In this document: positions 11,340-64,000 of the stretch, in pieces
Layout of the letters: every line of letters starts with the position of its first letter
Position numbering within the stretch: the stretch's first letter is position 1
NCBI RefSeq assembly: GCF_026745355.1
Contig: NC_079208.1
Coordinates: 21,582,955-21,646,954, forward strand
Direction: 5' to 3'
DNA length: 64,000 nt
From: Beta vulgaris subsp. vulgaris
Lineage: Eukaryota > Streptophyta > Magnoliopsida > Caryophyllales > Amaranthaceae
Program-made: the position numbers and the translations under genes
Notes under the pieces: model-generated
The model's database searches: none
Told to the model about the DNA's origin: nothing
The model's input: only the letters and a program-made list of their open reading frames with translations

Positions 11340-14300
11340 TTCTTGAATGAAGATGTATCAAAGGAGTTTGAACTAATTCAAGATTTCAATTCTTGGATTA
11401 AGAAAGTTCAAGTTTCACATTAATAGTTGGTTATCAAGATTTTTTGGTTTAGTAATCATATTAAGAATGATGCGGATGCAAAAGCACTTGTTCTACATGA
11501 GCCAATTGACAGTTATGGAGAACATGTGGTTCATTCTTAATGGAAGAAACCAACCTTTGGCATGTGTAGTGACTTGGCTCGAGGAAAACATGAAAGTAAA
11601 GATGCAGTCTTAGCTCAAGCAGGACTTGGTTGCCACAAAGAATCCTAGTTCTGTTTTGATTTACAATTAGTTGTTATATAGAATCCCAGTTTTGTTAAGA
11701 TTTGCTACGGTAGTTATTATTTTACTTAGGTTGTTAAAAATTATAGTTTAGCTAGGATTTAAGATAAGCGTGTGATTAGTTTCATTCTTATCTGGTTAAG
11801 TATTTGTTTTCCAAGTTCTATTAGGATAGGATGTACCCTACATAACGCGATTCATTATGTTGTTAAAAAATTATCTACATTTTTATTTAAAGAATTCAAT
11901 CTTGATTGTTGTTTTGCTTGTGAGGTAATTAATCAAACCATTAAATACTTTTAAGGAGTGATAAGTGTTTAGTGTTAAATAATTTAAATTCAGTAGTGAA
12001 TATGAGGGTGTTTAGATTCTTGTTCTCAAGATTAGGAGTGTTCTTGAATACAGAACTATCAAAGGTGCTTGAATTAATTCAAGATTTCGGTTCTTGGATT
12101 AAGAAAGATCAAGATTCACATTCACAGTTGGTTATTAAGCTTTTTTTCTTTAGTAATCATATTATGAATGATGCGGATCCAAAAGCACTTGTTCTTCATG
12201 AGCCTATTGACTTAGTTATGAAGAACATGAGGTTCAATCTTAATGGAAGAAACAAAACTTTGGCATGTGTAGTGACTTGGCTCGAGGAAAGTATGGAAGT
12301 AAAGAAGGATTCCTAGCTTAAGAAGGACTTGGTTGTGACATAGAATCCATGTTAAGTTTGGATATGTTGTTGGTTGTTACATAGAATCCTAGTTTTGTTA
12401 AGGATTCGTTATAGTAGTTATTATTTTACTTAGGTTGTTAAAAATTATAGTTTAGCTAGGATTTAAGATAGGCGTGTGATTGATTAGTTTCTTATGTGGT
12501 TAAGTATTTGTTTTCCAAGTTGTATTAGGATAGGATGTAGTCTATATAATGCGATTCATTATGTTTTTGATAAGATATCTGCATTTTGTTTAAAGAATTC
12601 AATATTGATTATTGTTTTGCTTGAGAGCTAATTAATCAAACCATTAAAGACATTTAAGAAGTGATAAGTGTTTAGTGTTAAATAACATAAATTCAGAAGT
12701 GAATTTGAGGGTGTTTAGATTCTGGTTCTCAAGATCAGGAGTGTTCTTAAATCAAGAAGTATCAAAGGTGTTTGAATCATTTCAAGATTTCGATTCTTGG
12801 ATTAAGAAAAAAGTTCCAGATTCACATTCATAGTTGGTTATCAAGCTTTTTTTGGTTTAGTAATGGTATTAAGAATGATGCGGATGTAAAAACACTTGTT
12901 CTATATGAGGCTATTGACTTTGGTATGGAGAACATAGGGCTCAATCTTAATGGAAGAAACCAACCTTTGCCATGTGAAGTGACTTGGCCCAAGGAAAGCA
13001 TGGAAGTAAAGGAGTCGTAGCTCAAGCACGACATGGTTGCCGCATAGAAGCCTAGTTCTGTTTACATTTGCAATTAGTTGTTAAATAGAATACTATTTTT
13101 CTTAGGATTTGCTATATATGGTAGTTATTATTTTACTTTGGTTGTCAAAAATTATAGTTCAGTTAGGATTTAAGATAGGCATGTGATTAGTTAGTTTCTT
13201 ATCTGGTTAAGTATTTGTTTTCGATGTTGTATTAGGATATGACGTCGCCTATATAAAGTGATTCATTATGCTGTCAAAAAGATATCTACATTTTTGTTTA
13301 AAGAATTCAATCTTGATTATTGTTTTGCTTGTGAGCTAATTAATCAAACGATTAAAGACTTTTAAGGAGTGATAAGTATTTAGTGTTAAATAACTTAAAT
13401 TCAGGAATGAATTTGAGGGTGTTTAGATTATTGTTCTCAAGATCAGGAGTGTTCTTGAATCAAGAAGTATCAAAGGTGTTGGAATTAATTCAAGATTTCG
13501 ATTCTTGGATTAAGAAAGTTCAAGATTCACATTCATAGTTGGTTATCAAGCTTTTTTGGTTTAGTAATTATATTAAGAATGATGCGGATGCAAAAGCACT
13601 CGTTCTACATCAGCCTATTGACTGTTATGGAGAACATGGGGTTCAATATTAATGGCAGAAACCAAGCTTTAGCATGTGTAATGACATGGCTAGAGCATAG
13701 CATGGAACTAAAGAAGGTGTCCTAGCTCAAGAAGGACTTGGTTGTCACATAGAATTCACATCCTGTTTGGATTTGCTATTGGTTGTTACGTAGAATCCTT
13801 GTTTTTTAAGGATTTGGTATAGTAGTTATTATTTTACTTAGGTTGTTAAAAATTATAGTTTACCTAGGATTTAAGAATCGCGTGTGATTAGATAGTTTTT
13901 TATCTTGTTAAGTATTTATCTTCCAAGTTGTTTTAGGATAGGATGTAGCCTCTATAACGCAATTCATTATGTTGTTAAAAAGACATCTACATTTTTGTTT
14001 AAAGAATTCAATCTTGATTATTGTTTTGCTTATGAGCTAATTAATCAAACCATTAAAGACTTTTAAGGAGTGATAAGTGTTTAGTGTTAAATAACCTAAA
14101 TTCGGAAGTGAATTTGAGGGTGTTTAGATTCTTGTTCTGAAGATCAGGAGTGTTCTTGAATAAAGAAGTATCAAAGGCGTTTGAATTATTTCAAGATTTC
14201 TATTCTTGGATTAAGAAAGTTCAAGATTCACATTCATAGTTGGTTATCAAGCTTTTTTTGGTTTCATAATCATATTAAGAATGTTGCGGATGCAAAGGCA

Positions 14301-15223
14301 CTTGTTCTACATAAGCCTATTGACTTAGTTATGGAGAACATGTGGTTCAATCTTAATGGAAGAAACCAAGCTTTGGCATATGTAGTGACTTGGCTCGAGG
14401 AAAACATGAAAGTAAAGAAGGAGTCCTAGTTCAAGAAGGACTCAGTTGTAACATAGAATCTTAGTTCTGTTTGGATTTGCTATTGGTTGTTACATAGAAT
14501 TATAATTCTGTTAGGATTTGCCATAGTAGTTATTATTTTACTTACGTTGTTAAAAATTATAGTTTGCCTGGATTTAAGATAGGGGTGTGATTAGTTAGTT
14601 TCTTATCTGGTTAAGTATTTTTTTTCCAATTTGTATTAGGATAGGATGTCACCTATATAACACGATTCATTATGTTGTTGAACATATATCTACAGTTTTG
14701 TTTAAATAATTCAATCTTGGATATTGTTTTGCTTGTGAGCGAATTAATCAAACAATTAAAGACTTTTAAGGAGTGATAAGTGTTTAGTGTTAAATAACTT
14801 AAATTCAGAAGTGAATTTGAGGGTGTTTAGATTCCTGTTCTCAAGATCAGGAGTGTTCTTGAATCAAAAAGTATCAAAGGTGTTTGAATTATTTAAAGAT
14901 TTCTATTCTTGGATAAGAAGGTTCAAGATTCACATTCATAGTTGGTTATCAAGCTTTTTTTGGTTTAGTAATCATATTTAGAATGTTGCGGATGCAAAAG
15001 CACTTGTTCTACATGAGTCTATTGACATGGTTATGAGAACACGGGGTTCAATCTTAATGGAAAAAACCAAGCTTTGGCATGTGTAGTGACTTGGCTCGAG
15101 GAAAACATGAAAGTAAAGAAGGAGTCCTAGTTCAAGAAGGACTTAGTTGTCACATAGAATCTTAGTTCTGTTTGGATTTACGATTGGTTGTTACATAGAA
15201 TTCTAGTTCTGTTAGGATTTGCT
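11340..15223 (+). repeat. Satellite B array, left block 1 (about 700-bp LTR-derived monomers)
   Basis: Head-to-tail monomers. The landmark ATAAGTGTTTAGTGTTAAATA recurs at about 11962, 12664, 13375, 14075 and 14778, a step of about 700-710 bp. Each unit is collinear with the LTR of the chromovirus at 23441-29119. It begins near GATGCGGATGCAAAAGC, includes CCTATATAACGCG (the TATA position) and ends GGTTTAGTAATCATATTA. This is joined directly to the next unit start. Strand is given in LTR sense. Left-array units carry an internal duplication of about 40 bp (TTACATAGAATCCTAGTT type) that is absent from the right array. The block starts mid-monomer at 11340. Confidence 0.92.
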
Positions 15224-16000
15224 CACTACTACATTTTTAATCAAAAGCAATGGCTAAAAAAAGCTATTGCGACAACTGTTTTTTATACCGTTGTAGTAGG
15301 ATCATCTATTGCAATGATCCTTTTCAATTTAGGTTCATGGATTGAGCTATTGCAACAACTTTACAATGACTGTCGCATTATGTATATCTATGGCAATGGT
15401 TTAGTGATTGTCGTTGCATTAGATAGAACTATAAATAGGGTCGTTGTAGTAGAGGTTATATATGACGTCTTTAATTAACTAATTGGCGCAAATCTAATTA
15501 ATCAAGTCCCTCTATATTTGTATCCGAAAAGTCAATTTTTTTTTTAAAAAAAACAGTCTCTTGTGCCTGCTTTACTTCGTTGTGAAATAAGAAACAAAAA
15601 CCATCAACACGTAACTGGTCGAATCGAAACACCACGAAAAAAAATCTAATCCCCCACATCTTGCAAGAGGAAGGGTAAGAATTTACGAGATTTCTTCCAA
15701 AATTCTTCCAAATTTCATAAGTATATGCAAAATTCAAGTCTTGAGCACAGCAAGTAGGTGAAATTATTCAAGAAAACTCAAGTAAAGAGACGAAATTCAA
15801 GAAAACCTAACAAAGAGGCGAATTCGGAGTTTCAAAAGTTATGTTCTTCAATTTCAATTGTTATGGAAGTTTTAGTGTCGGTGACTTTTTCAATTTTATA
15901 GTCATGGGGTTTTCGTATTATGCATAGCAGCGAGATTGTTTTCGTGATCTGCATCATATTACTTTCGCTTCTCCTTCAATTCTTGTCTGTGGCTGCCCTC
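15224..16000. mobile_element. Truncated CACTA element terminus in satellite B
   Basis: After GGATTTGCT the satellite is replaced by CACTACTACATTTTTAATC, a CACTA-type terminus. The sequence then contains repeated short motifs (CTATTGCGACAAC, CTATTGCAACAAC, GTCGTTGCATT, GTCGTTGTAGTAG) in both orientations, resembling CACTA subterminal repeats. No opposite CACTA end (TAGTAGTG or similar) and no transposase are present. Satellite resumes at about 16000 with roughly 150 bp of monomer missing. It is therefore a deleted end fragment. The small ORFs inside are not recognisable. Confidence 0.6.
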
Positions 16001-18682
16001 TTTATTTTGCAAGTTCTATTAGGACAAGATGTAGCCTATATAACGCGATTCATTATGTTTTTAAAAAGATATCTACATTTTTGTTTAAATAATTCAATCA
16101 TGATTATTGTTTTGCTTGTGATCTGATTAATAAAACCATTAAAGACTTTTAAGGAGTGATAAGTGTTTAGTGTTAAATAACTTAAATTCAAGAGTGAATT
16201 TGAGGGTGTTTAGATTCTTTTTCTCAAGATCAGAAGTGTTCTTGAAGCAAGAAGTATTGAAGGTGTTTAAATTAGTTCATGATTTCGATTCTTGGATTAA
16301 GAAAAATCAATATTCACATTCATAGATGGTTCTCAAGCTTTTTTGGTTTAGTAATGATATTAAGAATGATGCGGATGCAAAAGCACTTGTTCTACATGAT
16401 CCAATTGACTTGGTTATGGAGAACATGGGGTTCAATCTTACTGAAAGAAACCAAGCTTTAGCCTATGTAACGTGATTCATTATGTTGTAAATAAGATATC
16501 TACATTTTTATTTAAAGAATTCAATCTTGATTATTATTTTGCTTGTGAGCTAATTAATCAAATCATTAAAGACTTTTCAGGAGTGATAAGTGTTTAGTGT
16601 TAAATAACTTAAATTCATGAGTGAATTTGAGGGTGTTTAGATTCTTTTTCTGAAGATCAGGAGTGTTCTTGAATCAAGAAATATCAAAGATGTTCGAATT
16701 AATTCAAGATTTCCATTGTTGGATTAAGAAAGTTCATGATTCACATTCGTAGTTGGTTATCAAGCTTTTTTTTGGTTAGGTGATCATATTAAGAATGATG
16801 CGGATGCAAAAGCACTTGTTCTACATGAGCCTATTGACTTGGTTATGGAGAACATGGGGTTCAATCTTAATGAAAGAAACCAAGCTTTGGCATGTGTAGT
16901 GACTTGGCTAGAGGAAAGCATGTAAGTAAAGAAGGAGTCCTAGCTCAAGAAGGACTTGGTTGTCACATAGAATCCATGTTCTGACTGGATTTGCTATGGT
17001 AGTTATTATTTTACTTAGGTTGTTAAAAATTATAGTTTTGCTAGGATTTAAGATAGGCGTGTGATAAGTTAGTTTTTTGCCTTGTTAAGTATTTGTTTTC
17101 CAAGTTGTATTAGGATAGGATTTAGCCTAAATAACGCGATTCATTAGATTGTTAATAGCATATCTACATTTTCATTTAAAGAATTCAATGTTGATTATTG
17201 TTTTGCTTGTGAGCCAATTAATTAAACCATTACAGACTTTTCAGGACTGATAAGAGTTTAGTGTTAAATAACATAAATTCAAGAGTGAATTTGAGGGTGT
17301 TCAGATTCTTTTTCTCAAGATCATGAGTGTTCTTCAATCAAGAAGTATCAAAGGTGTTTGAATTAATTCAAGATTTTGATTCTTGGATTAAGAAAGATCA
17401 ATAGTCACATTGATAGTTGGTTATAAAGCTTTTTTGGTTTAGTAATCATATTAAGAATGATGCGGATGCAAAAGCACTTGCTCTACATGAGCCTATTGAT
17501 TTGGTTATGAAGAACATGGGGTTCAATATTAATGGAATAAACCAAACTTTGGCATGTGGAGTGACTTGGCTCGAGGAAAGCATGGAAGTAAAGAAGGATT
17601 CCTAGCTTAAGAAGGACTTGGTTGTCACATAGAATCCATGTTATGTTTGGACATGCTATTGGTTGTTACATAGGATCCTAGTTTTGTTAGCATTTCTTAT
17701 AGTAGTTATTATTTTACTTAGGTTGTTAAAATTATAGTTTAGCTAGGATTTAAGATAGGCGTGTGATTAGTTAGTTTCTTATCTGGTTAAGTATATGTTT
17801 TCCAAGTTGTATTAGGATAGGATGTAGCCTATATAACACGCTTCATTATGTTGTTAATAAGATATCCACATTTTAATTTAAAGAATTCAATCTTGATTAT
17901 TGTTTTGCTTGTGAGCTAATTAATCAAATCATTAAAGACTTTTCAGGAGTGATAAGTGTTTAGTGTTAAATAACTTAAATTCAGGAGTGAATTTGAGGGT
18001 GTTTAGATTCTTATTCTCAAGATCAGGAGTGTTATTGAATCAAGAGGTATGAAAAGTGTTTGAATTAATTCAAGATTTCGATTCTTGGATTAAGAAAGTT
18101 CAAGATTCACATTCATAGTTGGTTATCAAGCTTTTTTGGTTTTGTAATCATATTAAGAATGACGCGGATGCAAAAGCACTTGTTCCACATAAGCCAATTA
18201 ACTTTGTTATGGAGAACATGGGGTTCAATCTTCATGGAAGAAACCAACCTTTGGCAGGTGTAGTGACTTGGCCCGAGGATAGAATGGAAGTAATGAAGGA
18301 GTCCTTGCTCAAGCAGGACTTGGTTGCCACATAGAATCCTAGTTATGTTTGGATTTGCAATTAGTTGTTATATAGAATCCTAGTTTTGTTAGGAATTGCT
18401 ATGGTAGTCATTATTTTACTTAGGTTGTTAAAAATTATAGTTTAGATAGGATTTAAGACAGGCTTGTGATTAGTTAGTTTCTTATCTGGTTAAGTATTTG
18501 TTTTCCAAGTTCTATAAGGATAGTATGTAGGCTATATAACGCGATTCATTAAATTTTTAATAAGATATCTACATTTTTGTTTAAATAATTCAATCTTGAT
18601 TATTCTGTTGCTTGTGAGCTGATTAATCAAACTGTTAAAGATTTTAAAGGAGTGATAAGTGTTTAGTGTTAAATAAATTAAA
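16001..18682 (+). repeat. Satellite B array, left block 2
   Basis: LTR-derived monomers continue in the same orientation. Landmark positions are about 16158, 16588, 17250, 17958 and 18656, giving one short unit of about 430 bp (deleted from mid-unit to the TATA region), one of about 660 bp and two of about 700 bp. The TATA position is intact in some units (CCTATATAACGCG near 16031) and changed to CCTAAATAACGCG in others (near 17130). The block ends in the 9-bp target duplication of the foldback element. Confidence 0.9.
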
Positions 18683-19975
18683 GGGTTTTTTCACCAGGTA
18701 CCCCTGTGGTTTTTCAAAATTCATGGGGTACCCCTGGTTTTAAAAAAATGCACAAGGTACCATTATTGTTTCAATAAAATGCACCAAATGCCCTTAATGA
18801 CTAACGATGTCAAGTTTCCGTTAGTCATTAGGGTTAATTAACTCCTCTAATCCTAATTAAACCCTAATTAAGCCATAATTAACTAACTAAACCCTAACTC
18901 TATAACTTGAAACCCTAACCCCACAACCACCACCCAACCACCACCCAACCACCACCACCTCCCTTCCTCCCCCCTAACCCAGCACCCCCCAACAACCCCA
19001 GCCCCCCACCTAGCCCCCCTCCCCATCCCATCCCCCTCACCAGCAACCCCTCTCCGTCGCCGGCAACCACCTCCCTCTCTCCCCGCATTTCCGGCAACCC
19101 CCTGCAGCTGGCCTCCTTCCCCCTTGATTTCCCCAACCCACCACCACCCCTGCCCCAACCCCACGCCTCCCCAACCCCACCCCCACCCCCGACAGCGTAC
19201 CCCCCTCCCCTAGCAACAACAACCACCATTCTTGATTTCAAAAACTGTTTTCAAAATCAATTTCGAAAATGAATTTCAAAAACATTTTTGAAATCATTTT
19301 CGAAAATCAATTTCAAAAACATTTTCGAAAATCAATTTCGAAATCAAGAACCATTTTCGAAAAGGTTTTTGAAAATGGTTTTCGAAAACCTTTTGCGAAA
19401 TCAATTTGCGAAAACCTTTTTAAATCATTTTCGAAATTAGTTTTGAAATCAGTTTTTGAAATCAATAAAATCAATGAAGAAGAAGGAGAGAGAAATTAAG
19501 AACAGCATCTGCGGGGTGGAGGTGGGGAAATTTCGACGAAAAGCGACGGGAATGGGGGAGGGGATGGGGCTGCGAGGGATGGGGGAGCGTGGCTGCCGCG
19601 GGGGTGTGGAAGGGGAGGGGTGATGCAGGGGGTGGGGGGAACGGTGAAGGGTGGGTAAAGGAGGGGAGGAGTGTTGCAGGTGGTGGTGAGTGGGTGGGGG
19701 AGGGGCTGGGGAAGGTAGAAGGGGGATGTAGTGGGTGGGTGGTAGTTAGGGTTAGGGTTTAGGTTGGGGTGGGTGTGGAGGTGTTAGGGTTAGAAGGCTT
19801 AATTAGAGTTAGAGGGCTAATTAGGGTTGATGACTATCGAAAACTTAACATCGTTAGTCATTAAGGGCATTTGGTTCATTTTATTGAAACAATAAGGGTA
19901 CCTAGTGCATTTTTTTAAAACCAGGGGTACCCAATGAATTTTAAAAAACCACAGGGGTACCTGGTGAAAAAACAG
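18683..19975. mobile_element. Foldback Mutator-like element (non-autonomous)
   Basis: A 1293-bp insertion in a satellite B unit. The left end GGGTTTTTTCACCAGG is mirrored by CCTGGTGAAAAAACAG at the right. The terminal inverted repeats extend about 160-170 bp through blocks such as AGGTACCCCTGTGG and CTTAATGACTAACGATGT. It is flanked by TAAATTAAA (18674-18682) and TAACTTAAA (19976-19984), a 9-bp duplication with one mismatch, which is typical of Mutator-like elements. Inside, a C-rich left arm (about 18900-19225) is answered by a G-rich right arm (about 19510-19800), so the whole element can fold back. The centre is the TTTCGAAA-rich segment. There is no transposase; the ORFs in the arms are low-complexity. 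Confidence 0.82.
19230..19480. repeat. TTTCGAAA palindrome cluster in foldback element
   Basis: About 250 bp built from short self-complementary words (TTTCGAAA, TTTTCGAAAA, CATTTTTGAAATC) that recur every 15-30 bp. It forms the loop region between the C-rich and G-rich arms. The apparent ORF of 76 codons at 19269-19499 is a by-product of this low-complexity sequence. Confidence 0.75.
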
Positions 19976-19984
19976 TAACTTAAA

Positions 19985-20889
19985 TTTAGTAGTGAATTTG
20001 AGGGTGTTTAGATTCTTGTTCTTAAGATCATGAGTGTTATTGAATCAACAGGTATCAAAGGTGTTGGAATTGATTCATGATTTCGATTCCTGGATTAAGA
20101 AAGTTCAAGATTCACATTCATAGTTGGTTATCAAGCTTTTTTGGTTTAGTAATCATATTAAGTATAATGCGGATGCAAAAGCACTTGTTCTACATAAGCC
20201 TATTGACTTGGTTATGGAGAACATGGGGTTCAATCTTAATGGAAGAAACCATGCTTTAGCATGTGTAATGACTTGGCTAGATGAAAGCATGAAAGTAAAG
20301 AAGGAGTCCTAGCTCAAGAAGGACTTGGTTGTCACATAGAATCCATGATCTATTTGGATTTGCTATGGTAGTTATTATTTTACTTAGGTTCTTAAAAATT
20401 ATAGTTTAGCTAGGATTTAATATAGGCGTGTGATTAGTTAGTTCTTTGCCTTGTTAAGTATTTGTTTTCCAAGTTGTATTAAAATAATATGTAGCCTAAA
20501 TAACGCGATTCATTATGTTGTTAATAACATATCTACATTTTTGTTTAAAGAATTCAATCTTGATTATTGTTTTGATTATGAGTCAATTAATTAAACCATT
20601 AAAGACTTTTCAGGAGTGATAAGTGTTTAGTGTTAAATAACTTCAATTCAATAGTGAATTTGAGGGTGTTCAGATTCTTCTTCTCAAGGTCAGGAGTGTT
20701 CTTGAATCAAGAAGTATTAAAGGTGTTTGAATTAATTCAAGATTTCGATTCTTGGATTAAGAAAGATCAAGATTCACATTCATCGGTGGTTATCAAGCTT
20801 TTTCGGTTTAGTAATCATATTAAGTATGATGTGTATGCAAAAACACTTGTTCTACATGAGCTTATTGACTTGGTTACGGAGAGCATGGG
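19985..20889 (+). repeat. Satellite B array, left block 3
   Basis: Satellite monomers resume after the foldback element, in the same orientation and register. The next unit landmark is near 20620. Here the TATA position reads CCTAAATAACGCG. The array is cut at 20889 (GAGAGCATGGG) by the CACTA terminus that follows. Confidence 0.9.
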
Positions 20890-21007: not shown

Positions 21008-22359
21008 TGTAACAGCCCGATTTTCCGAGCTGCTAGGTAAATACACTTAAGATCCACTAATCACAATCAATGCTTAATAAGCCTCGGATTAAACATTTAC
21101 TTGCAGTGGAAACATAACCTATAAAACGATCCTGAAACCTGTGGGTTATTGGCCCACAAAACAAAATCCTTTATATAAGCTTCAATTACATTGATATCTC
21201 GACTAATATTCTCAAATATTGTATACAACGAAATATAAATATCTAATCTCAAATACACTATCTAGATACAAACTCAATCCATAAGCTACGACGAAATCTC
21301 TATCTTGCTTCACTTCAGAATCCTGAGCTCACAACACCAAACCTGCAACAATATTTTACTCTGCCACCCACCAAGTGACAGGCCACAGAAATGACAACAC
21401 TATCAGCAAAGCTGAGTACACACTGTGTAATATAAAATACAAGTTTAGGTGTATTTTGAAAACTAACACGTAGTTATAATAACAGATAATCACATTCGAC
21501 TCAGTTATTATAGTTTCACAAAATCAAATCGTTCGGCATGAATGCGAGTGGAGAGGGATACCACGCAGTACCAGCTGTCTCCAAACTATTGAGGGTCGTC
21601 ACCCAGCCTTTTATTGTTATGCTTGCAAGACTTACCCGGACATGTCCTATAACGCCAGGAATTCGCCCTTCCTGGAAGACAACAACTAGGGACTCCACCC
21701 GCCCTAACTCGGGGTGCCTATTCATGCCTCACTTTCATATTTATAAAATAAGATATTTAATGATTCATACTTGAATCCTCAATACTCATAACATAACACC
21801 ATATTCGTCCTTATCTGGTCTTAACTCATATTTGAATCATTTCCTCATTATCATACCAAATAATATTTTGAGAAATATAGTATTTTCAAACGAAATTGAA
21901 CAAAATGATACTTTTATAACCATCCAGTAGAAATTCACAACTAACTCATGGAGATGTATCTATAATCATGGTCATTACCACAAACGATATATGATATCCA
22001 AAATTCAATATAACGCCCACGGGAGCATTTAAATATATTTTGCTGAACCTAAAGGTTACCTCAGCTCTATAACAATTATACGAAACCTCCAATCATCATA
22101 ACTTGATTTCCAATATCATCTTCAATTCTATACGTCTACATAGCCATCCTCCAATAACCACCTCACAGTAACATCAATAATCAATAACCAAACTTAAATA
22201 TTCTAATTATCTTCTTTTAACGCAACCATTATGATAATCAAACTGAATCCCGTAAATAGGAATTAACGAAGTCATTCCATAACTCATAACTCGAGTTCAT
22301 GCATATCAACTCCAACTACGATAATTATTACAGTCTCCCAATTCTAAGATTATGACTTC

Positions 22360-23075
22360 CCTTGCATCATCAACAACGACTATCCAATAAGAACAATACA
22401 ACAACAACATAATAACAACAGCACATACAACAATAATACCACCTCCACCACCAACAATAACTCCAACACCAATAACACAAAATTAAGCATAATAACAGAA
22501 CAACACAACCACAATACAACAGCACAACCAACAACATAAACCACCACCTACTATGTTCATAACAAACCTAAGTAAATCATATTCCCAAATTTATCACTCC
22601 AACTTCTTGAATCATAAAAACAAGATGAACCATATTGTTCTACTGAATACTTTGGATATATATACTTAAACTATAAACCACATGATACTAGCTCTGGACA
22701 CATCATCGTAACCTTTTTAATCATGTCCAAACTAATTCATCTTCTAAACTAGTAAACTATTTTAACTATAACCCACGACAACATTACCACAACAACTAAC
22801 AACAACATAATAAATCCACCACAACCATCACAACTACTCCACAATAGCCACCACAACTACAACAACAACCATAACAACGGCGCAACAACAACAATAGGCA
22901 ACAACATCACAACAACTCCACCACAACCACAATGACAGAACAACAATAACCCAACAACACTACTACAACAGAACAACAACAACAACAACAATAGCAACTC
23001 CACAACAACTTCACCACAACCACCACAACAACTCCACAACAACAATAACATAACAAATCCACCTCAATCATCACA
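22360..23075. repeat. CAA/CCA-rich low-complexity expansion in the large LTR
   Basis: Interspersed (CAA)n, (CCA)n and ACAACAACA stretches, densest at 22780-23050. The matching part of the plus-strand LTR (about 9060-9420) is roughly 1 kb shorter and lacks them. The leucine/cysteine-rich ORFs on the opposite strand are artefacts of the trinucleotide repeat. Confidence 0.8.
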
Positions 23076-23440
23076 ATTACTCCACAAGTCCATGTACTAA
23101 ACACATTCCATTAAGAAGCATAATCATATTACTTAGTGTATAAGTGTTCTTTAGGTCAAATAAAACACCTCTAATGAACCTTAGTATGATATATCCATGT
23201 TACATACTCAATATACACATAATAAAATACACATCATAAGTAAATTCATTTCATAAACATGCTTTACACTAGAAAGAAACAATCACCTAACTATAGGTAT
23301 GGAAATCTCTAGGTTAAAACCAAACTAAGTGTGTACCTTAACTAAGGATGCTTAAAGCCACGAAATTCCTAAATCCACTTGGTTAACTACTCCTACAGCT
23401 TCCCCTGAATGTATAAAATGCTAAAGATTAGTTTCAACAA

Positions 23441-24129
23441 TGATATGATTATTAAACCAAGAAGTCTAATAATCAAGTATGAATATGAATCTTGAAGAAA
23501 AGACTTCAAGAAACTCGAACCAGCTAGTAAGTATTCGAACAAGGATATGGATTTATTCAAGAACACTCCTGAACCTTGAATAAAAACTCTAAACACTCCT
23601 AAAATCACTCCTAAAATTAAGATGTTTAACACTAAGTATTCAACACTCCTGAAGAATAACTAATGGTTTCAATTGCAAGCGTACAAGTACACAATCAAGA
23701 ATAAGTTTAAACACAAAAATCTATAAGTTATTATTGAAGAAAACACCCTTTTATATAGGGTACAACTTATGCTATTCTAACTAGGAAAACATAAACTTAT
23801 CCTACTCCTACTTTACTTTAGACTCCTAATTAGACTCCTAAAGATAACATGTACAAGTCACATGTTTATCTTTTTTAAAACATTAAACATAAAACATAAA
23901 GATAAACATAGCAATCCTAACAGAACTAGGATTCTATGTGACAAGCAAGGAGTAATCCTCTTGAACTAGGATTCCTCTTTACCCCTTTCCACGCCACCAT
24001 CCATCGCCATATCCAAGTCCCATGTTAGCACACAAGCTAAGACTTGGTTCTTGTTCTTGATTTGGAACCCTAAAGTTCCATGGTCAAGTCAATAGGCTCA
24101 TGGTTAAAAGTGCCTTTGCATCCATATCA
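23441..24129 (-). repeat. 3' LTR of the chromovirus
   Basis: 689 bp, ends TGATATG and CATATCA. It pairs with 28426-29119. The TATA-like CCCTATATAA lies at 23751-23760 (minus strand). This LTR is the closest relative in the window of the satellite B monomer, and the similarity runs along the full length. Confidence 0.95.
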
Positions 24130-25271: not shown

Positions 25272-25286
25272 ATAAGAACCTTCTTG

Positions 25287-28414: not shown

Positions 28415-28423
28415 CTGATACCA
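28415..28423 (-). promoter_or_regulatory. Primer binding site, tRNA-Met type
   Basis: The minus strand reads TGGTATCAG, 2 bp after the 5' LTR end. It matches the first nine bases of the initiator tRNA-Met primer site and then diverges (TTTT for AGC). Confidence 0.8.
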
Positions 28424-49440: not shown

Positions 49441-49455
49441 CCAGATTTCTCTTTA

Positions 49456-51330: not shown

Positions 51331-53060
51331 GAAATCTTGAATTAAATCAAACACCTTTGATACTTCTTGATTCAAGAACACTCTTGATCTTGAGAACAAG
51401 AATCTAAACACCCTAAAATTCACTCCTGAATTTAATTTATTTAACACTAAACACTTATCACTCCTGAAAAGTCTTCAATGGTTTAATTAATTGGCTCACA
51501 AGCAAAACAATGATCAAGATTATTGAATTCTTTAAACAAAAATGTAGATATGTTATGAACAATATAATGAATCGCGTTATTTAAGATACATCCTATCCTA
51601 ATACAACTCGGAAAACAAATACTTAACAATGCAAGAAACTAACTAATCACACGCCTATCTTAAAACCAAGCTAAATTATACTTTTTAACAACCTAAGTAA
51701 TGAAATATTAACTACCATAGCAAATCTAAAAAGAACATGGATTCTATGTGACAACCAAGTCCTTCTTGAGCTATGACTCCTTCTTTACTTCCATGCTTTC
51801 CTCTAGCCAAGTCATTACACATGCTAACGATTGGTTTCTTCCATTAAGATTGAACCCCATGGTCTCCATAACCAAGTCAATAGGCTCATGTAGAACAAGT
51901 GCTTTTGCATCCGCATCATTCTTAATATGATTACTAAACCAAGAAGGCTTGATAACCAACTATGAATGTGAATCTTGAACTGACTTTCTAAATCCAAGAA
52001 TGGAAATCATGAATTAATTCAAACACCTTTGAGACTTCTTGATTCAAGAACACTCCTGATCTTGAGAACAAGAATCTAAACACCCTCAAATGCACTACTG
52101 AATTTAATTTATCTAACACTAAACACTTATCACTTCTGAATAGTCTTTAATGGTATAATTAATTGGCTCACAAGCAAAACAATAATCAAGATCGAATTGT
52201 TTAAAGAAAATAGTAGATATGTTATTAACAACATAATGAATCACGTTATTTAGGCTACATCCTAAGCTAATACAACCGGGAAAACAAATACTTAACAAGG
52301 CAAGAAACTAACTAATCACACGCCTATCTTAAAAACTAGCTAAACTATAATTTTTAACAACCTAAGTAAAATAATAACTACCACATCAAATCTAAAAAGA
52401 ACATGGATTCTATGTGACAATCACGTCCTTCTTGAGCTATGACTCCTTCTTTACTTCCATGCTTTCCTCTAGCCAAGTCATTACAAATGCTAACGATTGA
52501 TTTCTTCCATTAAGATTGAACCCCATGGTCTCCATAACCAAGTCAATAGGCTTATGTAGAATAAGTGCTTTTGCATCCGATTCATTCTTATATGATTACT
52601 AAACCAAAAAGGCTTGATAACAAACTATGAATGTGAATCTTGAACTTTCTTAATCCAAGAATCGAAATCTTGAATTAATTCAAACACTTTTGATACTTCT
52701 TGATTCGAGAACCCTCCTGATCTTCAGAACAAGAATCTAAACACCCTCAAATTCAACCCTGAATTTAATTTTTTTAACACTACACGCTTATCACTCCAGA
52801 AAAGTTTTTAATAGTTTAGTTAATTGGCTCACAAGCAAAACAATAATCAAGATTGAATTCTTTAAACAAAAATGTAGATATGTTATTAACGACATAATGA
52901 ATCGCGTTATTTAGACTACATCCTATCCTAATACAACTCGGAAAACAAATACTTAACAAGGCAAGAAACTAACTAATCACACGCCTATCTTAAAACCTAG
53001 CTAAACTATAATTTTTAACAACCTAAGTAAAATAATAACTAACATAGCAAATCTAAAAAG
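51331..53060 (-). repeat. Satellite B array, right block 1
   Basis: LTR-derived monomers in the orientation opposite to the left array. The landmark TTATCACTCCTGAAAAGTCTT and its variants lie near 51466, 52128 and 52788, a step of about 660 bp. The region matching the TATA box reads (plus strand) TTATTTAAGATACATCC, TTATTTAGGCTACATCC and TTATTTAGACTACATCC in successive units, defining subtypes B, C and A. Interrupted at 53060. Confidence 0.92.
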
Positions 53061-54422
53061 AGGGGGGGTGAATTGTAGGTGTAGAAATAAACGTAACTTT
53101 TTGCGGAAATTAAAACTTAAACGAATAAACAAGCTAGAGGAACACAAGGAATTTTTACGAGGAAAAACTTTTTGGGCCCAACAAGAAGAAACAACCTCGA
53201 TCACTAGGGATTTTAAACTCAACTCTTTCACTAATTAGGCCAAACAACTTTGTTACAACCTAATTCTAACTCGAGCCACACCTTGAGTTCCTAAACTCAA
53301 GTTCCTGAGCCACTGTTCCCTTAACATCAATTCCTCTGAACTTCACTCGAAGTTTTCTTACTCAAACAAGCTTTACTCAAAGCCTCTCTCTTACAGAACT
53401 TCACTCAAAGTTCCCTTACCCCAAAAACCAAAATACAATTGATCGAAATAAGCTTAGTGGAATTAGAGTAAGAAAGCAAAGAACAAATGGGTATTATGAG
53501 AGAATGAAGGCACTGACACTCAATTAGTTAAACTCACTTAATTACTTAGTCAGACACACTTTGGAACTTATTTAGACTTCAATATTTATAGTAATAATCA
53601 CAAAGAACGTGGGAGTAAAACTCGATTACATGTTAAGTCCATTAACCTATGATGTTCCTTCCCCTAAGGAACACGTTTCTCATCATGTCCCATGATCCCA
53701 TGATCTCAATATGAACGTGGATATATTTTAGCCACAACTCCTAAGTAATAGGAGTTCCTTGAGCTTTATCCGAAAATCAGTTAGTTATAAAAACAACTTT
53801 ATCATTAAAACTGAATTTTTAATCTTTTAAGAAAATAATATCTTTTAAACAAATTCTTTATAAAACCGGATAATTATTTTCTTTATATTTTCCGAAAAAA
53901 AAATCTTTTCCTTAAACATATTTTCTTTTTAAAACTGATTTTATCATTTAAACTGATTTTAAATTAGTTAAAACTAATTTCCTATAATTTAGGCATGACT
54001 TACTCAATTGCGTAATTGTACCGTTATACTTTTGCACGCCTAAGTCTAGTTCCTTTTATAAACTAAGTTCCTATAACAGATTCGTTTAGTGCCACTTAGT
54101 TTGTTCCTTAGAAAGGAACAAACTCTCATTCTCAAATAAAACTGCCACTGTTCCTTACCATCCTTACTTTGTTCCTTTACACTGGAACTAGAAAATAAAA
54201 CGCCTAGCTTTTATTCTTCTTGATCCAATGCTTGCTCCAGTATCAACTTATAGAAACTTCTTCACTTAGCCTTTGAAATCCTCTCTTGACTTCTTCCTTG
54301 ACTTCGTATTCTCCCAGTTCCTTTAATTGATACCTTAAACATCATACACTTAAATAACTCATTAGTTCACTACTTAGTTTGCATCTTTGTTTCTTTGTCA
54401 TCATCAAAACTAGGGTTCAACA
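53061..54422. mobile_element. Insertion in satellite B, probable LTR-type fragment
   Basis: About 1.36 kb of unrelated sequence from AGGGGGGGTGAATTG to AAAACTAGGGTTCAACA. The G7 tract followed by TGAATTGTAGG could be a polypurine tract followed by an LTR start. Read from the other side, TGTTGAACCCTAGTTTTGATGATG also resembles a plant LTR start, so the class and orientation are unresolved. About 55 bp of the satellite unit are missing at the insertion point and no target duplication is visible. No ORF of note; the interior has AAGTTCCTT/GAACTTAAG-like short words and poly-A/T tracts. Confidence 0.5.
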
Positions 54423-57400
54423 CATGCATTCCTTTAGCCAAGTCATTACACATGCTAACAATTGGTTTCTTCCATTAAGATTGAACCCCATAGTCTCCAT
54501 AACCAACTCAATCGGCTCATGTAGAACAAGTGCTTTTGCATCCGCATCATTCTTAATATGATTACTAAACCAAAAAGGCTTGATAACCAACTATGACTGT
54601 GAATCTTGAAATTTCTTAATCCAAGAATGGAAATCGTGAATTAATTCAAACACCTTTGATACTTCTTGATTCAAGAACACTCTTGATCTTGAGAACAAGA
54701 ATCTAAACACCCTCAAATGCACTACTGAATTTAATTTATATAACACTAAACACTTTATCACTCTTGAATAGTCTTTAATGGTATAATTAATTGGCTCACA
54801 AGCAAAACAGTAATCAAGAATGAATTCTTTAAAGAAAATTGTAGATATGTTATTAACATAATGAATTGTGTTATTTAGGCTACATCCTATGCTAATATAA
54901 CTGGGAAAACAAATACTTAACAAGGCAAGAAACTAAATAATCGCACACCTATCTTAAAAACTAGCTAAACTATAATTTTTAACAACCTAAGTAAAATAAT
55001 AACTACCATAGAAAATCTAAAAAGAACATGGATTCTATGTGACAACCAAGTCCTTCTTGAGCTATTACTCCTTTACTTTCATGCTTTCCTCTAGCCAAGG
55101 CATTAGACATGCTAACGATTGGTTTCTTCTATTAATATTGAACCCCGTGGTCTCCGTAACCAAGTCAATAGGCTCATGTAGAACAAGTGATTTTGCATCC
55201 GCATCATTCTTAATATGATTACTAAACCAAAAAGGCTTGATAACCAACTATGAATGTGAATCTTGAACTTTCTTAATCCAAGAATAGAAATCTTGAATTA
55301 ATTCAAACACCTTTGATACTTCTTGATTCAAGAACACTCTTGATCTTGAGAACAAGAATCTAAACACCCTAAAATTCACTCCTGAATTTAATTTAGTTAA
55401 CACTAAACAATTATCACTCCTGAAAAGTCTTTAATGGTTTAATTAATTGGCTCACAAGCAAAACAATGATCAAGATTATTGAATTCTTTAAACAAAAATG
55501 TAGATATGTTATTAACAACATAATGAATCGCGTTATTTAGGATACATCCTATCCTAATACAACTCGGAAAACAAATACTTCGATCACAATGCAAGAAACT
55601 AACTAATCACACGCCTATCTTAAAACCTAGCTAGATGATAATTTTTAACAACCTAGGTAAATTATTAACTACCATAGCAAATCTAAAAAGAACATGGATT
55701 CTATGTGACAACCAAGTCCTTCTTGAGCTATGATTCCTTCTTTACTTCCATGCTTTCCTCTAGCCAAGTCACTACACATGCTCACGATTGGTTTCTTCCA
55801 TTAAGATTGAACCCCATGGTCTCCATAACCAAGTCAATAGGCTCATGTAGAACAAATGCTTTTCCATCCGATTCATTCTTATATGATTACTAAACCAAAA
55901 AGGCTTGATAAACAACTATGAATGTGAATCTTGAACTTTTTTAATCCAAGAATCGAAATCTTGAATTAATTCAAACACCTTTGATACTTGTTGATTCAAG
56001 AACACTCCTGATCTTGAGAACAAGAATCTAGACACCCTCAAATTCACTCCTGAATTTAATTTATTTAACACTAAACACTTATCACTCCTGAAAAGTCTTT
56101 AATAGTTTAATTAATTGGCTCACAAGCAAAACAATAATCTAATTGAATTCTTTAAACAAAAATGTAGATATGTTAATAACAACATAATGAATCGCGTTAT
56201 TTAGACTACATCCTATCCTAATACAACTCGGAAAACAAATACTTAACAAGGCAAGAAACTAACTAATCACACGCCTATCTTAAAACCTAGCTAAACTATA
56301 ATTTTTAACAACCTAAGTAAAATAATAACTACCATAGCAAATCTAAAAAGAACATGGATTCTATGTGACAACCAAGTCCTTCTTGAGCTATGATCTTTCT
56401 TTACTTCCATGCTTTCCTCTAGCCAAGTCATTACACATGCTAACAATTGGTTTCTTCCATTAAGATTGAACCCCATGGTCTCCATAACCAAGTCAATAGG
56501 CTCATGTAGAACAAGTGCTTTTGCATCCGCATCATTCTTAATATGATTACTAAACCAAAAAGGCTTGATAACCAACTATGAATGTGAATCTTGAAATTTC
56601 TTAATCCAAGAATGGAAATCGTGAATTAATTCAAACACCTTTGATGCTTCTTGATTCAAGAACACTCTTGATCTTGAGAACAAGAATCTAAACACCCTCA
56701 GATTCACTCCTGAATTTAATTTATTTAACACTAAACACTTATCACTCCTGAAAAGTCTTTAATAGTTTCATTAATTGGCTCAAAAGCAAAACAATAATCA
56801 AGATTATTGAATTCTTTAAACCAAAATGTAGATATGTTATTAACAACATAATGAATCGCGTTATTTAGGATACATCCTATCCTCATAAAACTCGAAAAAC
56901 AAATACTTCACAATGCAAGAAACTAACTAATCACACGCCTATCTTAAAACCTAGCTAAATTATAATTTTTAACAACCTAAGTAAATTATTAACTACCATA
57001 GCAAATCTAAAAAGAACATGGATTCCATGTGACAACCAAGTCCTTCTTGAGCTATGATTCCTTCTTTACTTCCATGCTTTCCTCTAGCCAAGTCATTACA
57101 CATGCTCACGATTGGTTTCTTCCATTAAGATTGAACCCCATGGTCTCCATAACCAAGTCAATAGGCTCATGTAGAACAAGTGCTTTTGCATCCGCATCAT
57201 TCTTAATATGATTACTAAACCAAAAAGGCTTGATAACCAACTATGAATGTGAATCTTGAAATTTCTTAATCCAAGAATGGAAATCGTGAATTAATTCAAA
57301 CACCTTTGATACTTCTTGATTCAAGAACACTCTTGATCTTGAGAACAAAATCTAAACACCCTCAGATTCACTCCTGAATTTAATTTATTTAACACTAAAC

Positions 57401-60400
57401 ACTTATCACTCCTGAAAAGTCTTTAATAGTTTAATTAATTGGCTCACAAGCAAAACAATAATCAAGATTATTGAATTCTTTAAACCAAAATGTAGATATG
57501 TTATTAACAACATAATGAATCGCGTTATTTAGGATACATCCTATCCTAATACAACTTGGAAAACAAATACTTAACAATGCAAGAAACTAACTAATCACAC
57601 GCCTATCTTAAAACCTAGCTAAATTATAATTTTTAACACCCTAGGTAAAATATTAACTACCATAGCAAATCTAAAAATAACATGGATTCTATGTGACAAC
57701 CAATCCTTCTTGAGCTATGACTACTTCTTTACTTCCATGCTTTGCTCTAGCCAAGTCATTACACATGCTAATGATTGGTTTTTTCCATTAAGATTGAACC
57801 CCATGGTCTCCATAACCAAGTCAACAGGCTCATGTAGAACAATTGCTTTTGCATCCGCATCATTCTTAATATGATTACTAAACCAAAAAGGCTTGATAAC
57901 CAACTATGAATGTGAATCTTGAACTTTCTTAATCCAAGAATGGAAATCATGAATTAATTCAAACACCTTTGATACTTCTTGATTCAAGAACACTCCTGAT
58001 CTTGAGAACAAGAATCTAAACACCCTCAAATCCACTACTGAATTTATTTTATCTAACACTATACACTTATCACTCCTGAATAGTCTTTAATGGTATAATT
58101 AATTGGCTCACAAGCAAAACAATAATCAAGAATGAATTCTTTAAAGAAAAAAGTAGATATGTTATTAACAACATAAAGAATCGCGTTATTTAGGCTACAT
58201 CCTATCCTAAACAACTGGGAAAACAAATACTTAACAAGGCAAGAAACTAACTAATCACATGCCTATCTTAAAAACTAGCTAAACTATAATTTTTAACAAC
58301 CTAAGTAAAATAATAACTACCATAGCAAATCAAAAAAAACATGGATTCTATGTGACAACCAAGTCCTTCTTGAGCTATGACTCCTTCTTTACTTCCATGC
58401 TTTCCTCTAGCCAAGTCATTACACATGCTAACGATTGGTTTCTTCCATTAAGATTGAACCCCATGGTCTCCGTAACCAAGTCAATAGGTTCATGTAGAAC
58501 AAGTGCTTTTGCATCCGCATCATTCTTAATATGATTACTAAACCAAAAAGGCTTTATAACCAACTATGAATGTGAATCTTGAACTTTCTTAATCCAAGAA
58601 TAGAAATCTTGAATTAATTGAAACACCTTTGATACTTCTTGATTCAAGAACACTCTTGATCTTGAGAACAAGAATCTAAACACCCTAAAATTCACTCCTG
58701 AATTTAATTTATTTAACACTAAACACTTATCACTCCTGAAAAGTCTTTAATGGTTTAATTAATTGGCTCACAAGCAAAACAATAATCAAGAATGAATTCT
58801 TTAAAGAAAAAGTAGATATGTTATTAACAACATAAAGAATCGCGTTATTTAGGCTACATCCTATCCTAATACAACAGGGAAAACAAATACTTAACAAGGC
58901 AAGAAACTGACTAATCACACGCCTATCTTAAAAACTAGCTAAACTATAATTTTTAACAACTTAAGTAAAATAATAACTACCATAGCAAATCTAAAAAGAA
59001 CATGGATTCTATGTGACAACCAAGTCCTTCTTGAGCTATGACTCCTTCTTTACTTCCATGCTTTCCTAGCCAAGTCATTACACATGCTAACGATTGGTTT
59101 CTTCGATTAAGATTGAACCCCATGGTCTCCATAACCAAGTCAATAGGCTCATGTAGAACAAGTGCTTTTGCATCCGCATCATTCTTAATATGATTACTAA
59201 ACCAAAAAGGCTTGATAACCAACTATGAATGTGAATCTTGAACTTTCTTAATCCAAGAATCGAAATCTTGAATTAATTCAAACACCTTTGATACTTCTTG
59301 ATTCAAGAACACTCTAGATCTTGAGAACAAGAATCTAAACACCCTCAGATTCACTCCTGAATTTAATTTATTTAACACTAAACACTTATCACTCCTGAAA
59401 AGTCTTTAATAATTTAATTAATTGGCTCACAAGCAAAACAATAATCAAATTGAATTCTTTAAACAAAAATGTAGATATGTTAATAACAACATAATGAATC
59501 GCTTTATTTAGACTACATCCTATCTAATACAACTCGGAAAACAAATACTTAACAAGGCAAGAAACTAACTAATCACAGCCTATCTTAAAACCTAGCTAAA
59601 CTATAATTTTTAACAACCTAAGTAAAATAATAACTACCATAGCAAATCTAAAAAGAACATGGATTCTATGTGACAACCAAGTCCTTCTTGAGCTATGACT
59701 CCTTCTTTACTTCCATGCTTTCTCTAGCCAAGTCATTACACATGCTAACAATTGGTTTCTTCCATTAAGATTGAACCCCATGGTCTCCATAACCAAGTCA
59801 ATAGGCTCATGTAGAACAAGTGCTTTTGCATCCGCATCATTCTTAATATGATTACTAAACCAAAAAGGCTTGATAACCAACTATGAATGTGAATCTTGAA
59901 ATTTCTTAATCCAAGAATCGAAATCGTGAATTAATTCAAACACCTTTGATACTTCTTGATTCAAGAACACTCTTGATCTTGAGAACAAGAATCTAAACAC
60001 CCTCAGATTCACTCCTGAATTTAATTTATTTAACACTAAACACTTATCACTCCTGAAAAGTCTTTAATAGTTTAATTAATTGGCTCACAAGCAAAACAAT
60101 AATCAAGATTATTGAATTCTTTAAACCAAAATGTAGATATGTTATAACAACATAATGAATCGCGTTATTTAGGATACTCTATCCTAATACAACTGGAAAA
60201 CAATACTTAACAATGCAAGAAACTAACTAATCACACGCCTATATTAAACCTAGCTAAATTAAATTTTTAACACCTAGTAAAATATTAACTACCATAGCAA
60301 ATCTAAAAATAACATGGATTCTATGTGACAACCAAGTCCTTCTTGAGCTATGACTACTTCTTTACTTCCATCCTTTGCTCTAGCCAACTCATTACACATG

Positions 60401-63400
60401 CTAATGATTGGTTTCTTCGATTAAGATTGAACCCCGTGGTCTCCATAACCAAGTCAATAGTCATGTAGAACAAGTGCTTTTGCATCCGATCATTCTTATA
60501 TGATTACTAAACCAAAAAGGCTTGATAACCAACTATGAATGTGAATCTTGAATTTCTTAATCCAAGAATGAAATCTGAAATTAATTCAAACACCTTTGAT
60601 TTCTTGATTCAAGAACACTCTGATCTTGAGAACAAGAATTAAACACCCTCAAATTCACTCCTGAATTTAATTTATTAACACTAAACACTTATCACTCTGA
60701 AATAGTCTTTAATATTAATTAATTGGCTCACAAAGCAAAACTAATCAATGAATTCTTTAAAACAAAATATGTAGATATGTTAACAACATAAGAATCGCGT
60801 TATTTAGACTACATCCTATCCTAATACAACTGGAAAACAATACTTAACAAGGCAAGAAACTAACTAATCACACGCCTATCTTAAAACTCTAGCTAAATAT
60901 AATTTTTAACAACCTAAGTAAAATATTAAACTACCATGCAAATCTAAAAAAACATGGATTCTATGTGACAACCAAGTCCTTCTTGAGCTATGACTCCTTC
61001 TTTACTTCATGCTTTCTCTAGCCAAGTATTAACATGCTAACATTGGTTTCTTCATTAGATTGAACCCCATGGTCTCCATAACAAGTCAATAGGCTCATGT
61101 AGAACAAGTGCTTTTGCATCCGCATATTCTTAATATGATTACTAAACCAAAAGGCTTGATAACCAACTATGAATGTGAATCTTGAATTTCTTAATCCAAG
61201 AATAGAAATCTTTGAATTAATTCGAGCACCTTTGATATTTCTTGATTCAAGAACACTCTTGATCTTGAGAACAAGAATCTAAACACCCTCAAATTCACTC
61301 CTGAATTTAAGTTATTTAACACTAAACACTTATCACTCCTGAAAAGTCTTTAATAGTTTAATTAATTGGCTCACAAGCAAAACAATATCAAGATTATTGA
61401 ATTCTTTAAACCAAAATGTAGATATGTTATTAACAACATAATGAATCGCGTTATTTAGGATACATCCTATCCTAATACAACTTGGAAAACAAATACTTAA
61501 CAATGCAAGAAACTAACTAATCACACGCCTATCTTAAACCTAGCTAAATTATAATTTTAACACCCTACGTAAAATATTAACTACCATAGCAAATCTAAAA
61601 ATAACATGGATTCTATGTGACAACCAAGTCCTTCTTGAGCTATGACTACTTCTTTACTTCCATGCTTTGCTCTAGCCAACTCATTACACATGCTAATGAT
61701 TGGTTTCTTCGATTAAGATTGAACCCCGTGGTCTCCATAACCAAGTCAATAGGCTCATGTAGAACAAGTGCTTTTGCATCCGATTCATTCTTATATGATT
61801 ACTAAACCAAAAAGGCTTGATAACCAACTATGAATGTGAATCTTGAACTTTCTTAATCCAAGAATCGAAATCTTGAATTAATTCAAACACCTTTGATTTC
61901 TTGATTCAAGAACACTCCTGATCTTGAGAACAAGAATCTAAACACCCTCAAATTCACTCCTGAATTTAATTTATTTAACACTAAACACTTATCACTCCTG
62001 AAAAGTCTTTAATAATTAATTAATTGCTCACAAGCAAAACAATAATCAAATTGAATTCTTTAAACAAAAATGTAGATATGTTAAGACAACATAATGAATC
62101 GCGTTATTTAGACTACATCCTATCCTAATACAACTCGGAAAACAAATACTTAACAAGGCAAGAAACTAACTAATCACACGCTATCTTAAAACTAGCTAAA
62201 CTATAATTTTAACAACTAAGTAAAATAATAACTACCATAGCAAATCTAAAAAGAACATGGATTCTATGTGACAACCAAGTCCTTCTTGAGCTATGACTCT
62301 TTTTACTTCCATGCTTTCCTCTAGCCAAGTCATTACACATGCTAACAATTGGTTTCTTCTCATTAAGATTGAACCCCATGGTTCCATAACCAAGTCAAAG
62401 GCTCAAGTAGAAAAGTGCTTTTGCATCCGATCATTCTTAATATGATTACTAAACCAAAAAGGCTTGATAACCAACTATGAATGGAATCTTGAAATTTCTT
62501 AATCCAAGAATGGAAATCGTGAATTAATTCAAACACCTTTGATACTTCTTGATTCAAGAACACTCTTGATCTTGAGAACAAGATCTAAACACCCTCAGAT
62601 TCACTCCTGAATTTAATTTATTTAACACTAAACACTTATATCCTGAAGATCTTTAATAGTTTAATTAATTGGCTCACAAGCAAAACAATAATCAAGATTA
62701 TTGAATTCTTTAAACCAAAATGTAGATATGTTATTAACAACATAATGAATCGCGTTATTTAGGATACATCCTATCCTAATACAACTTGGAAAACAAATAC
62801 TTAACAATCAAGAAACTAACTAATCACACGCTATCTTAAAACCTAGCTAAATTATAATTTTAACACCCTAGGTAAATATTAATACCATAGCAAATCTAAA
62901 AATAACATGGATTCTATGTGACAACCAAGTCCTTCTTGAGCTATGACTCTTCTTTACTTCCATGCTTTGCTCTAGCCAACTCATTCACATGCTAATGATT
63001 GGTTTCTTTCGATTAAGATTGACCCGTGGTCTCCATAACCAAGTCAATAGGCCATGTAGAACAGTGCTTTTGCATCCGATTCATTCTTATATGATTACTA
63101 AACCAAAAAGGCTTGATAACCAACTATGAATGTGAATCTTGAACTTTCTTAATCCAAGAATCGAAATCTTGAATTAATTCAAACACCTTTGATTTCTTGA
63201 TTCAAGAACACTCCTGATCTTGAGAACAAGAATCTAAACACCCTCAAATTCACTCCTGAATTTAATTTATTTAACACTAAACACTTATCACTCCTGAAAA
63301 GTCTTTAATAATTTAATTAATTGGCTCACAAGCAAAACAATAATCAAATTGAATTCTTTAAACAAAATGTAGATATGTTAATACAAATAATGAATCGCGT

Positions 63401-64000
63401 TATTTAGACTACATCCTATCCTAATACAACTCGGAAAACAAATACTTAACAAGGCAAGAAACTAACTAATCACACGCCTATCTTAAACCTAGCTAAACTA
63501 TAATTTTTAACACCTAAGTAAAAAATAACTACCATAGCAAATCTAAAAAGAACATGGATTCTATGTGACAACCAAGTCCTTCTTGAGCTATGACTCCTTC
63601 TTTACTTCCTGCTTTCCTCTAGCCAAGTCATTACACATGCTAACAATTGGTTTCTTCCATTAAGATTGAACCCCATGGTTCCATAACCAAGTCAAAGGCT
63701 CAGTAGAACAAGTGCTTTTGATCCGATCATTCTTATATGATTACTAAACCAAAAAGGCTTGATAACCAACTATGAATGGAATCTTGAAATTTCTTAATCC
63801 AAGAATGGAAATCGTGAATTAATTCAAACACCTTTGATACTTCTTGATTCAAGAACACTCTTGATCTTGAGAACAAGAATCTAAACACCCTCAGATTCAC
63901 TCTGAATTTAATTTATTTAACAAAACTTATCACTCCTGAAAGTCTTTAATAGTTTAATTAATTGGCTCACAAGCAAAACAATAATCAAGATTATTGAATT
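54423..64000 (-). repeat. Satellite B array, right block 2, with dimeric higher-order repeat
   Basis: About fourteen monomers of about 660 bp in minus orientation, continuing past the window edge. Subtypes called from the plus-strand word after TTATTTAG run in the order C, B, A, B, B, C, C, A, B, A, B, A, B, A and then the start of a B. Subtype-linked differences include GATTATTGAATTCTTTAAACC (B) against AAATTGAATTCTTTAAACA (A), and AATGCAAG (B) against AAGGCAAG (A). The last units alternate strictly, giving a dimer of about 1.3 kb. Many single-base gaps occur after about 60100. The 60-62-codon ORFs are produced at each LTR-LTR junction. Confidence 0.92.

Follow-up and report, generated by a model that had tools for sequence, protein, structure and literature searches.

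How does a satellite monomer come to resemble the long terminal repeat (LTR) of a retrotransposon, and which of the two came first? The question is raised by the window, the whole stretch of 64,000 nucleotides analysed here (contig C10:21,582,955-21,646,954; the genome comprises 569 Mb on 20 contigs, nine of them of 55.8-72.5 Mb). Satellite B, a noncoding unit in long head-to-tail array, occupies both sides of a non-satellite region (20890-51326) that holds other repeats, including an intact Ty3/gypsy element, and the original prediction saw in the monomer a tandemly amplified LTR of that element. Our results suggest that satellite B very probably did originate from an LTR and was then amplified, with an LTR subfamily other than that of the window element as its likely source.

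Satellite B and the LTR element in the window

The arrays and their insertions were delimited by nhmmer with a right-array profile; the features on which the argument draws are as follows.

11339-20889, minus relative to the LTR as printed: left satellite B array
about 15209-15997 and 18683-19974: non-satellite insertions in the left array
51327-63999, plus (LTR orientation as printed): right satellite B array
about 53081-54422: insertion in the right array
23441-29119, minus (coding strand): Ty3/gypsy LTR element
23441-24129, minus: 3' LTR of this element, 689 bp
28426-29119, minus: 5' LTR of this element, 694 bp, 97.1% identical to the 3' LTR
28415-28425, minus: primer-binding-site side, AG adjoining the LTR (28424-28425), then TGGTATCAG
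24130-24141, minus: polypurine tract, GGGGGAGAA up to the 3' LTR in element sense
23436-23440 and 29120-29124: the two copies of the target-site duplication AACAA
8078-9787, minus: inverted empty-site copy of the element's surroundings (self blastn; matches 29120-29801, 23074-23440 and 21370-21791)

The right block continues beyond the window to C10:21,666,161, where it ends in mid-monomer 31.9 kb from its start; from the window edge to 21.665 Mb it is known through junction matches only. Whole monomers of the right array measure 646-668 bp, with one exception of 635 bp, and do not contain an internal duplication of ~40 bp that the alignment reveals in most left-array monomers. Among the eight whole left-array monomers measured, six are 701-707 bp long and two, which are without the duplication, 663 bp. 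In a joint alignment identity is about 94% within the right array, 89% within the left and 89% between the two, and window monomers are 85-99% alike. Rfam and ARAGORN gave no matches, and no remnants of an internal region were detected at E<=1e-5 at the array edges searched, namely the right end of the right block and the left end of the C10:21.27-Mb block. Our guess is that satellite B is heterochromatic satellite DNA.

The window element inserted recently. Its empty site is found at 8801-8805, within 8078-9168, with the five target bases common to both flank matches, and its LTRs have diverged by a K2P distance of 0.019, which corresponds to an age of 0.7-1.4 My at rates of 1.3e-8 to 7e-9 substitutions per site per year. 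Gag, RT, the integrase zinc-binding domain and SH3_Tf2-1 score above the Pfam cut-off in separate open pieces and the integrase core below it. We take TGGTATCAG to be a primer site of the tRNA-Met type. The LTR ends read TGATATG...CATATCA, and in relatives that have the CCGCATCA end the element-sense reading is TGATG. The element had been called a chromovirus. Pfam finds no chromodomain in the scanned pieces, the last open piece giving SH3_Tf2-1 only; the primer site and, less clearly, the LTR ends resemble those of the CRM clade, for which the portion of the source cited describes LTR ends of the TGATG...CATCA kind and a primer site for tRNA-Met, together with a group B devoid of both chromodomain and CR motif (PMC3059260). 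In two related elements at 41550-51328, nothing better than E 3.7 was obtained for LTR likeness.

Origin of the monomer and its closest LTRs

That the monomers match the LTR in order and over its full length is borne out by global alignment, in which the 694-bp LTR and the 662-bp right-array consensus align end to end with a score of 420, well above that of shuffled sequence (200 dinucleotide shuffles: mean -36, SD 17.6, maximum 16) and of the reverse complement (-72). Identity is 0.75 in the columns without gaps and 0.66 when all columns count; because the shuffles themselves average 0.66 in ungapped identity (maximum 0.71), the global score and not ungapped identity serves as the yardstick. 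The similarity is collinear yet uneven, ranging from 0.40 to 0.88 in 35-bp bins, and rotating the monomer causes a steady fall in score, so that the phase of the monomer relative to the LTR is fixed. This supports the view that the satellite is built of complete LTRs with no internal region.

Collinear similarity of about 65% would in itself be compatible with the window element, or its close family, being the source. A genome search with a pattern consisting of the monomer end and the polypurine run (up to 2 mismatches) gave 115 matches, and none for the reversed-pattern controls, from which 30 loci were built. LTRs of this family beside a primer-binding site or polypurine tract are present on every one of the nine large contigs, with differences of up to about 37% among them. 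In 9 of the 30 loci the LTR matches the satellite profile with at least 220 bits (best 346); the window element's LTRs score 202 and 214. Related internal DNA between two satellite-homologous LTRs is found in the window element, in L039 (LTRs 86.6% alike) and in L063 (C5:30413300-30420300), whose two 720-bp LTRs are 93.75% alike and both carry the ~40-bp duplication found in most left-array monomers. The LTR L064a, on C2, begins TAATATG after the primer-binding site, like the monomers. Mean identity to 12 monomers is 81% for L064a, 79-80% for L063, 74-76% for L012, L020, L024 and L039b, and 65-66% for the window element's LTRs; the joint alignment puts the LTR at a mean of 64-65% to the monomers.

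A query with 294 bp of an LTR at C5:66.18 Mb, for which 40 of 543 candidates were scored, brought up 36 places on C10 among those 40; the others were the query itself and LTRs at C5:30.414, C5:30.419 and C2:20.155 Mb. With L064a, 59 of the matches listed were the query and 58 places on C10, the full-length ones at 77-82%; scoring covered 9 of 399 candidates, and L063, which stands at 88%, does not appear in the list, so that the list is partial. The genome thus contains LTRs nearer the satellite, of 79-81% identity, some of which share the ~40-bp duplication and the CCGCATCA end. Derivation from the element at 23441-29119 is not borne out: its LTRs reach 65-66% against 79-81% for the others, its family falls outside the satellite's subfamily and the copy itself is a recent arrival, which together make it a highly improbable source. 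Even the nearest full LTRs reach only about 80%, so the parent copy itself is lost or unsampled.

The phylogeny, an unrooted tree of 36 rows (12 window monomers and 24 LTRs hand-picked from the loci, fragmentary copies being left out), recovers the satellite monomers as a single clade (100/100) inside an LTR subfamily that does not include the window element's family. Its sister is L064a (85/82, rising to 98/97 without the two long rows L014 and L037). A constraint that groups the subfamily LTRs to the exclusion of the satellite lowers the log-likelihood by 78 and 74 units and is rejected (p-AU 6e-8 and 6e-9), for an LTR group that was named only after the tree was seen. Judged from these sequences, the satellite appears nested within LTR diversity.

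Being unrooted, the tree alone is also compatible with a root on the satellite branch, as would be required if the satellite existed first and was adopted by the elements as their LTR. It is very hard to reconcile this order of events with LTRs dispersed over all nine large contigs and up to about 37% different, when window monomers are 85-99% alike, with an exact monomer junction that occurs only on C10, or with a seam that holds bases from both outer flanks of an LTR pair (see below), and we regard it as most unlikely. Besides the tree, three observations support the direction from LTR to satellite: the elements are dispersed, the satellite is confined, and the seam is made up of such bases.

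The seam between monomers

The start motif located 29 junctions in the window (17 in the right array, 12 in the left). As had been predicted, the LTR end runs into the next LTR start with a few bases between: by eye, the spacer is 4 bp at 29/29. By script, AGAA (TTCT as printed) is intact at 26 of the 29, namely at 17/17 in the right array and 9/12 in the left. An example is the following.

51919-51922, plus: 4-bp seam, TTCT as printed, AGAA in element sense

In element sense the join reads CATATTA-AGAA-TGATGCGG. Comparison with the window element resolves AGAA into the AG beside the primer-binding site and the AA that precedes the 3' LTR (tract GGGGGAGAA), so that the spacer is of the 2-LTR type, composed of the two outer bases from each LTR end. 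AG also adjoins the LTR in L064a, which ends in TA. The 30 loci include 27 in which AGAA precedes the 3' LTR, a count that is not independent because the loci were found with a pattern containing those bases.

In retroviruses, linear cDNA usually extends two bases past the LTR at either end, and by this rule joined cDNA ends would yield AG followed by AA. The seam may accordingly be read as the product of unintegrated cDNA whose ends, with two extra-LTR bases each, were joined to give LTR-AGAA-LTR. From the sequence of the seam, we consider the chances of such end joining to be roughly even. Joining of LTRs, for example in 2-LTR circles, had been proposed as the route, and the seam fits it; an internal deletion fits equally well. 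Such a deletion, in one chromosomal copy, would join the AG that follows the 5' LTR to the AG lying four bases ahead of the 3' LTR; a 2-bp microhomology would thereby eliminate the internal region at once and leave the identical four bases, with unequal exchange to follow. Deletion is also the model put forward for CRM1TR/CRM4TR of maize in the part of that study cited (PMC3648361). A deletion would need two breakpoints, each no farther than two to four bases from an LTR, although about 4.3 kb of internal DNA lies between the LTRs; with end joining they come to lie there unaided. This is an argument on prior chance and not a test. We favour end joining because it fixes both breakpoints, and hold deletion, which is a rival for this step only, to be a real if lesser possibility.

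A third conceivable way to build the array is insertion of LTRs, repeated or nested, at a single site, and multiple insertion into one site is among the routes to tandem elements listed in the consulted part of a review (PMC12628747). Insertion would be expected to leave a target-site duplication of ~5 bp between copies, such as the AACAA of the window element; the spacer has four bases, the same in 26 of 29 junctions, and they are those flanking the LTRs. We therefore see very little likelihood in this route.

No LTR-AGAA-LTR intermediate that still had internal DNA joined to it came to light in the chromosomes. An exact pattern for LTR-LTR junctions that retain the TG start gave 0 matches, in a search that had no positive control and would miss diverged cases; on this count, diverged cases aside, the satellite seems to have been founded once. 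A series of three LTR copies at C9:45.444-45.447 Mb was considered as an array of this kind and rejected, as other DNA lies between its first two copies (L008).

Amplification on C10 and comparison with known satellites

The exact 35-bp junction has 54 matches in the genome, all on C10:20.889-21.812 Mb. When up to 3 mismatches are allowed there are 170, all on C10 among the 100 listed; reversed-pattern controls gave 0 in both cases. We infer that the junction is absent from C1-C9 from the seeming contig order of the list, which covers 100 of the 170 matches. Among the fetched loci outside L047-L062, fuzzy junctions occur twice, in the array edges L065 and L066. A trimer higher-order repeat is evident in the 13 monomers of the block at C10:21.298-21.308 Mb, where identity is 98.7% at a spacing of three monomers and 89-90% at spacings of one, two, four or five. 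No higher-order repeat is present in the right array within the window (lag means 0.94-0.95, 14 monomers).

These observations are consistent with an origin in four steps. The ancestor, as the evidence supports, would be an LTR of the Ty3/gypsy family present on all nine large contigs, from a subfamily now represented by the copies at C5:30.414 Mb and C2:20.154 Mb and not by the window element. After the putative joining of cDNA ends, a chromosomal head-to-tail pair may have been multiplied by unequal exchange into units of LTR plus AGAA without the internal region. The last step is visible as a pattern, in which the exact-junction arrays are confined to about 1 Mb of C10, with blocks in both orientations: one lineage would have kept the parental ~40-bp duplication and, in one block, formed the ~2.08-kb trimer higher-order repeat, and the other would have lost the duplication and given rise to the right array. 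Taken as a whole, it is a toss-up whether the seam is a fossil of cDNA end joining, with one 2-LTR junction molecule having founded a chromosome-specific satellite that later acquired a trimer higher-order repeat.

If this is true, reverse transcription has by-products from which satellite DNA can arise directly. The origin of new satellites is an open question, and satellite B offers a clear view of satellite birth; relatives of the parent LTR, the seam, sublineages and a higher-order repeat can all be read in one genome, so that cDNA end joining and chromosomal deletion can be tested against each other.

Satellites arising from tandem repeats inside LTR elements were reportedly described by Macas in 2009. 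Such satellites grow from short tandem repeats already within the element, whereas the satellite B monomer is the LTR itself. According to the excerpt cited (PMC7004042) they are retroelement-derived, a trait that satellite B very probably shares.

LTR-derived satellites as such are already established, with CRM1TR/CRM4TR (PMC3648361) and a hop CRM-LTR repeat (PMC12371157) as examples in the sections of those papers used here. Like satellite B, CRM1TR/CRM4TR of maize are tandem repeats from the LTR region of Ty3/gypsy elements; they occupy centromeres or their vicinity, and variants differ from locus to locus. Their unit, as given in the same sections, is part LTR and part UTR, unlike the whole LTR plus four bases of satellite B with its seam at the LTR ends, and short repeats suited to a one-step deletion were not detected by the authors, where satellite B has one of 2 bp (PMC3648361). 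SaazCEN of hop, likewise LTR-linked, is a centromeric repeat embedded within the LTR of a centromere-loving retrotransposon, whereas the unit of satellite B is the LTR as a whole; the hop genome, in the same partial account, also holds chromosome-specific satellites (PMC12371157). In beet, the centromeric satellite pBV adjoins Ty3/gypsy elements (Beetle) much as satellite B does and differs in its description, which gives variants of 327, 329, 385 and 573 bp and no LTR origin in the part of the paper cited (PMC4881148). LTR-derived satellites are also on record in the review, whose mechanisms, in the portion cited, do not include 2-LTR molecules (PMC12628747). A whole-LTR satellite with a 2-LTR seam was not found in the parts examined of PMC3648361, PMC3605345, PMC4881148, PMC2820488, PMC12628747, PMC7004042, PMC12371157, PMC3059260 and PMC11603912, which is weak evidence, as most subscription literature and the BeetRepeats sequences lie outside this set. 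Satellite B is a variant among LTR-derived satellites, distinguished by its whole-LTR unit, its seam and the visible relatives of its parent LTR.

Surroundings of the left satellite B array

The left end of the window (1-7420) is occupied by another satellite besides satellite B, with units of ~160 and ~180 bp and with dimers of 340 bp. The left satellite B array is flanked by a pair of inverted repeats, with arms at 8078-9787 and 21370-29801, one of which carries the window element (the Ty3/gypsy LTR element at 23441-29119) while the other holds the empty site. The array itself is interrupted at 18683-19974 by an insertion that forms a long imperfect palindrome, the identity between its arms being about 69%.

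Other gypsy elements in the window

30392-38370, further gypsy-type element with LTRs of 462 bp
41550-51328, gypsy element in two copies, 93-96% alike

The LTRs of the first element are 96.3% alike (K2P 0.038). It has open frames on the minus strand between 34476 and 36227, and at 36692-37314 it contains a 112-bp tandem repeat. The pol of the paired copies is related to that of the window element; likeness to the window-element LTR was sought in both copies and none was found. The second copy adjoins the right satellite B array.

LTR arrangements elsewhere in the genome

On C9, the locus L008 (45.4428-45.4465 Mb) has repeated LTRs that belong to the window family and are spaced about 1.2 kb; the DNA separating the two copies seen is non-element. 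In two loci on C10, L060 and L061 (21.745-21.747 Mb), the unit is larger, at about 1.47 kb, and positions 291-358 of the satellite B profile are repeated within it. At the C2 locus L064 (2743-3976), a primer-binding site is followed head to tail by a full LTR and then by a partial LTR beginning at profile position ~201; this stretch is a dispersed LTR-LTR partial tandem.
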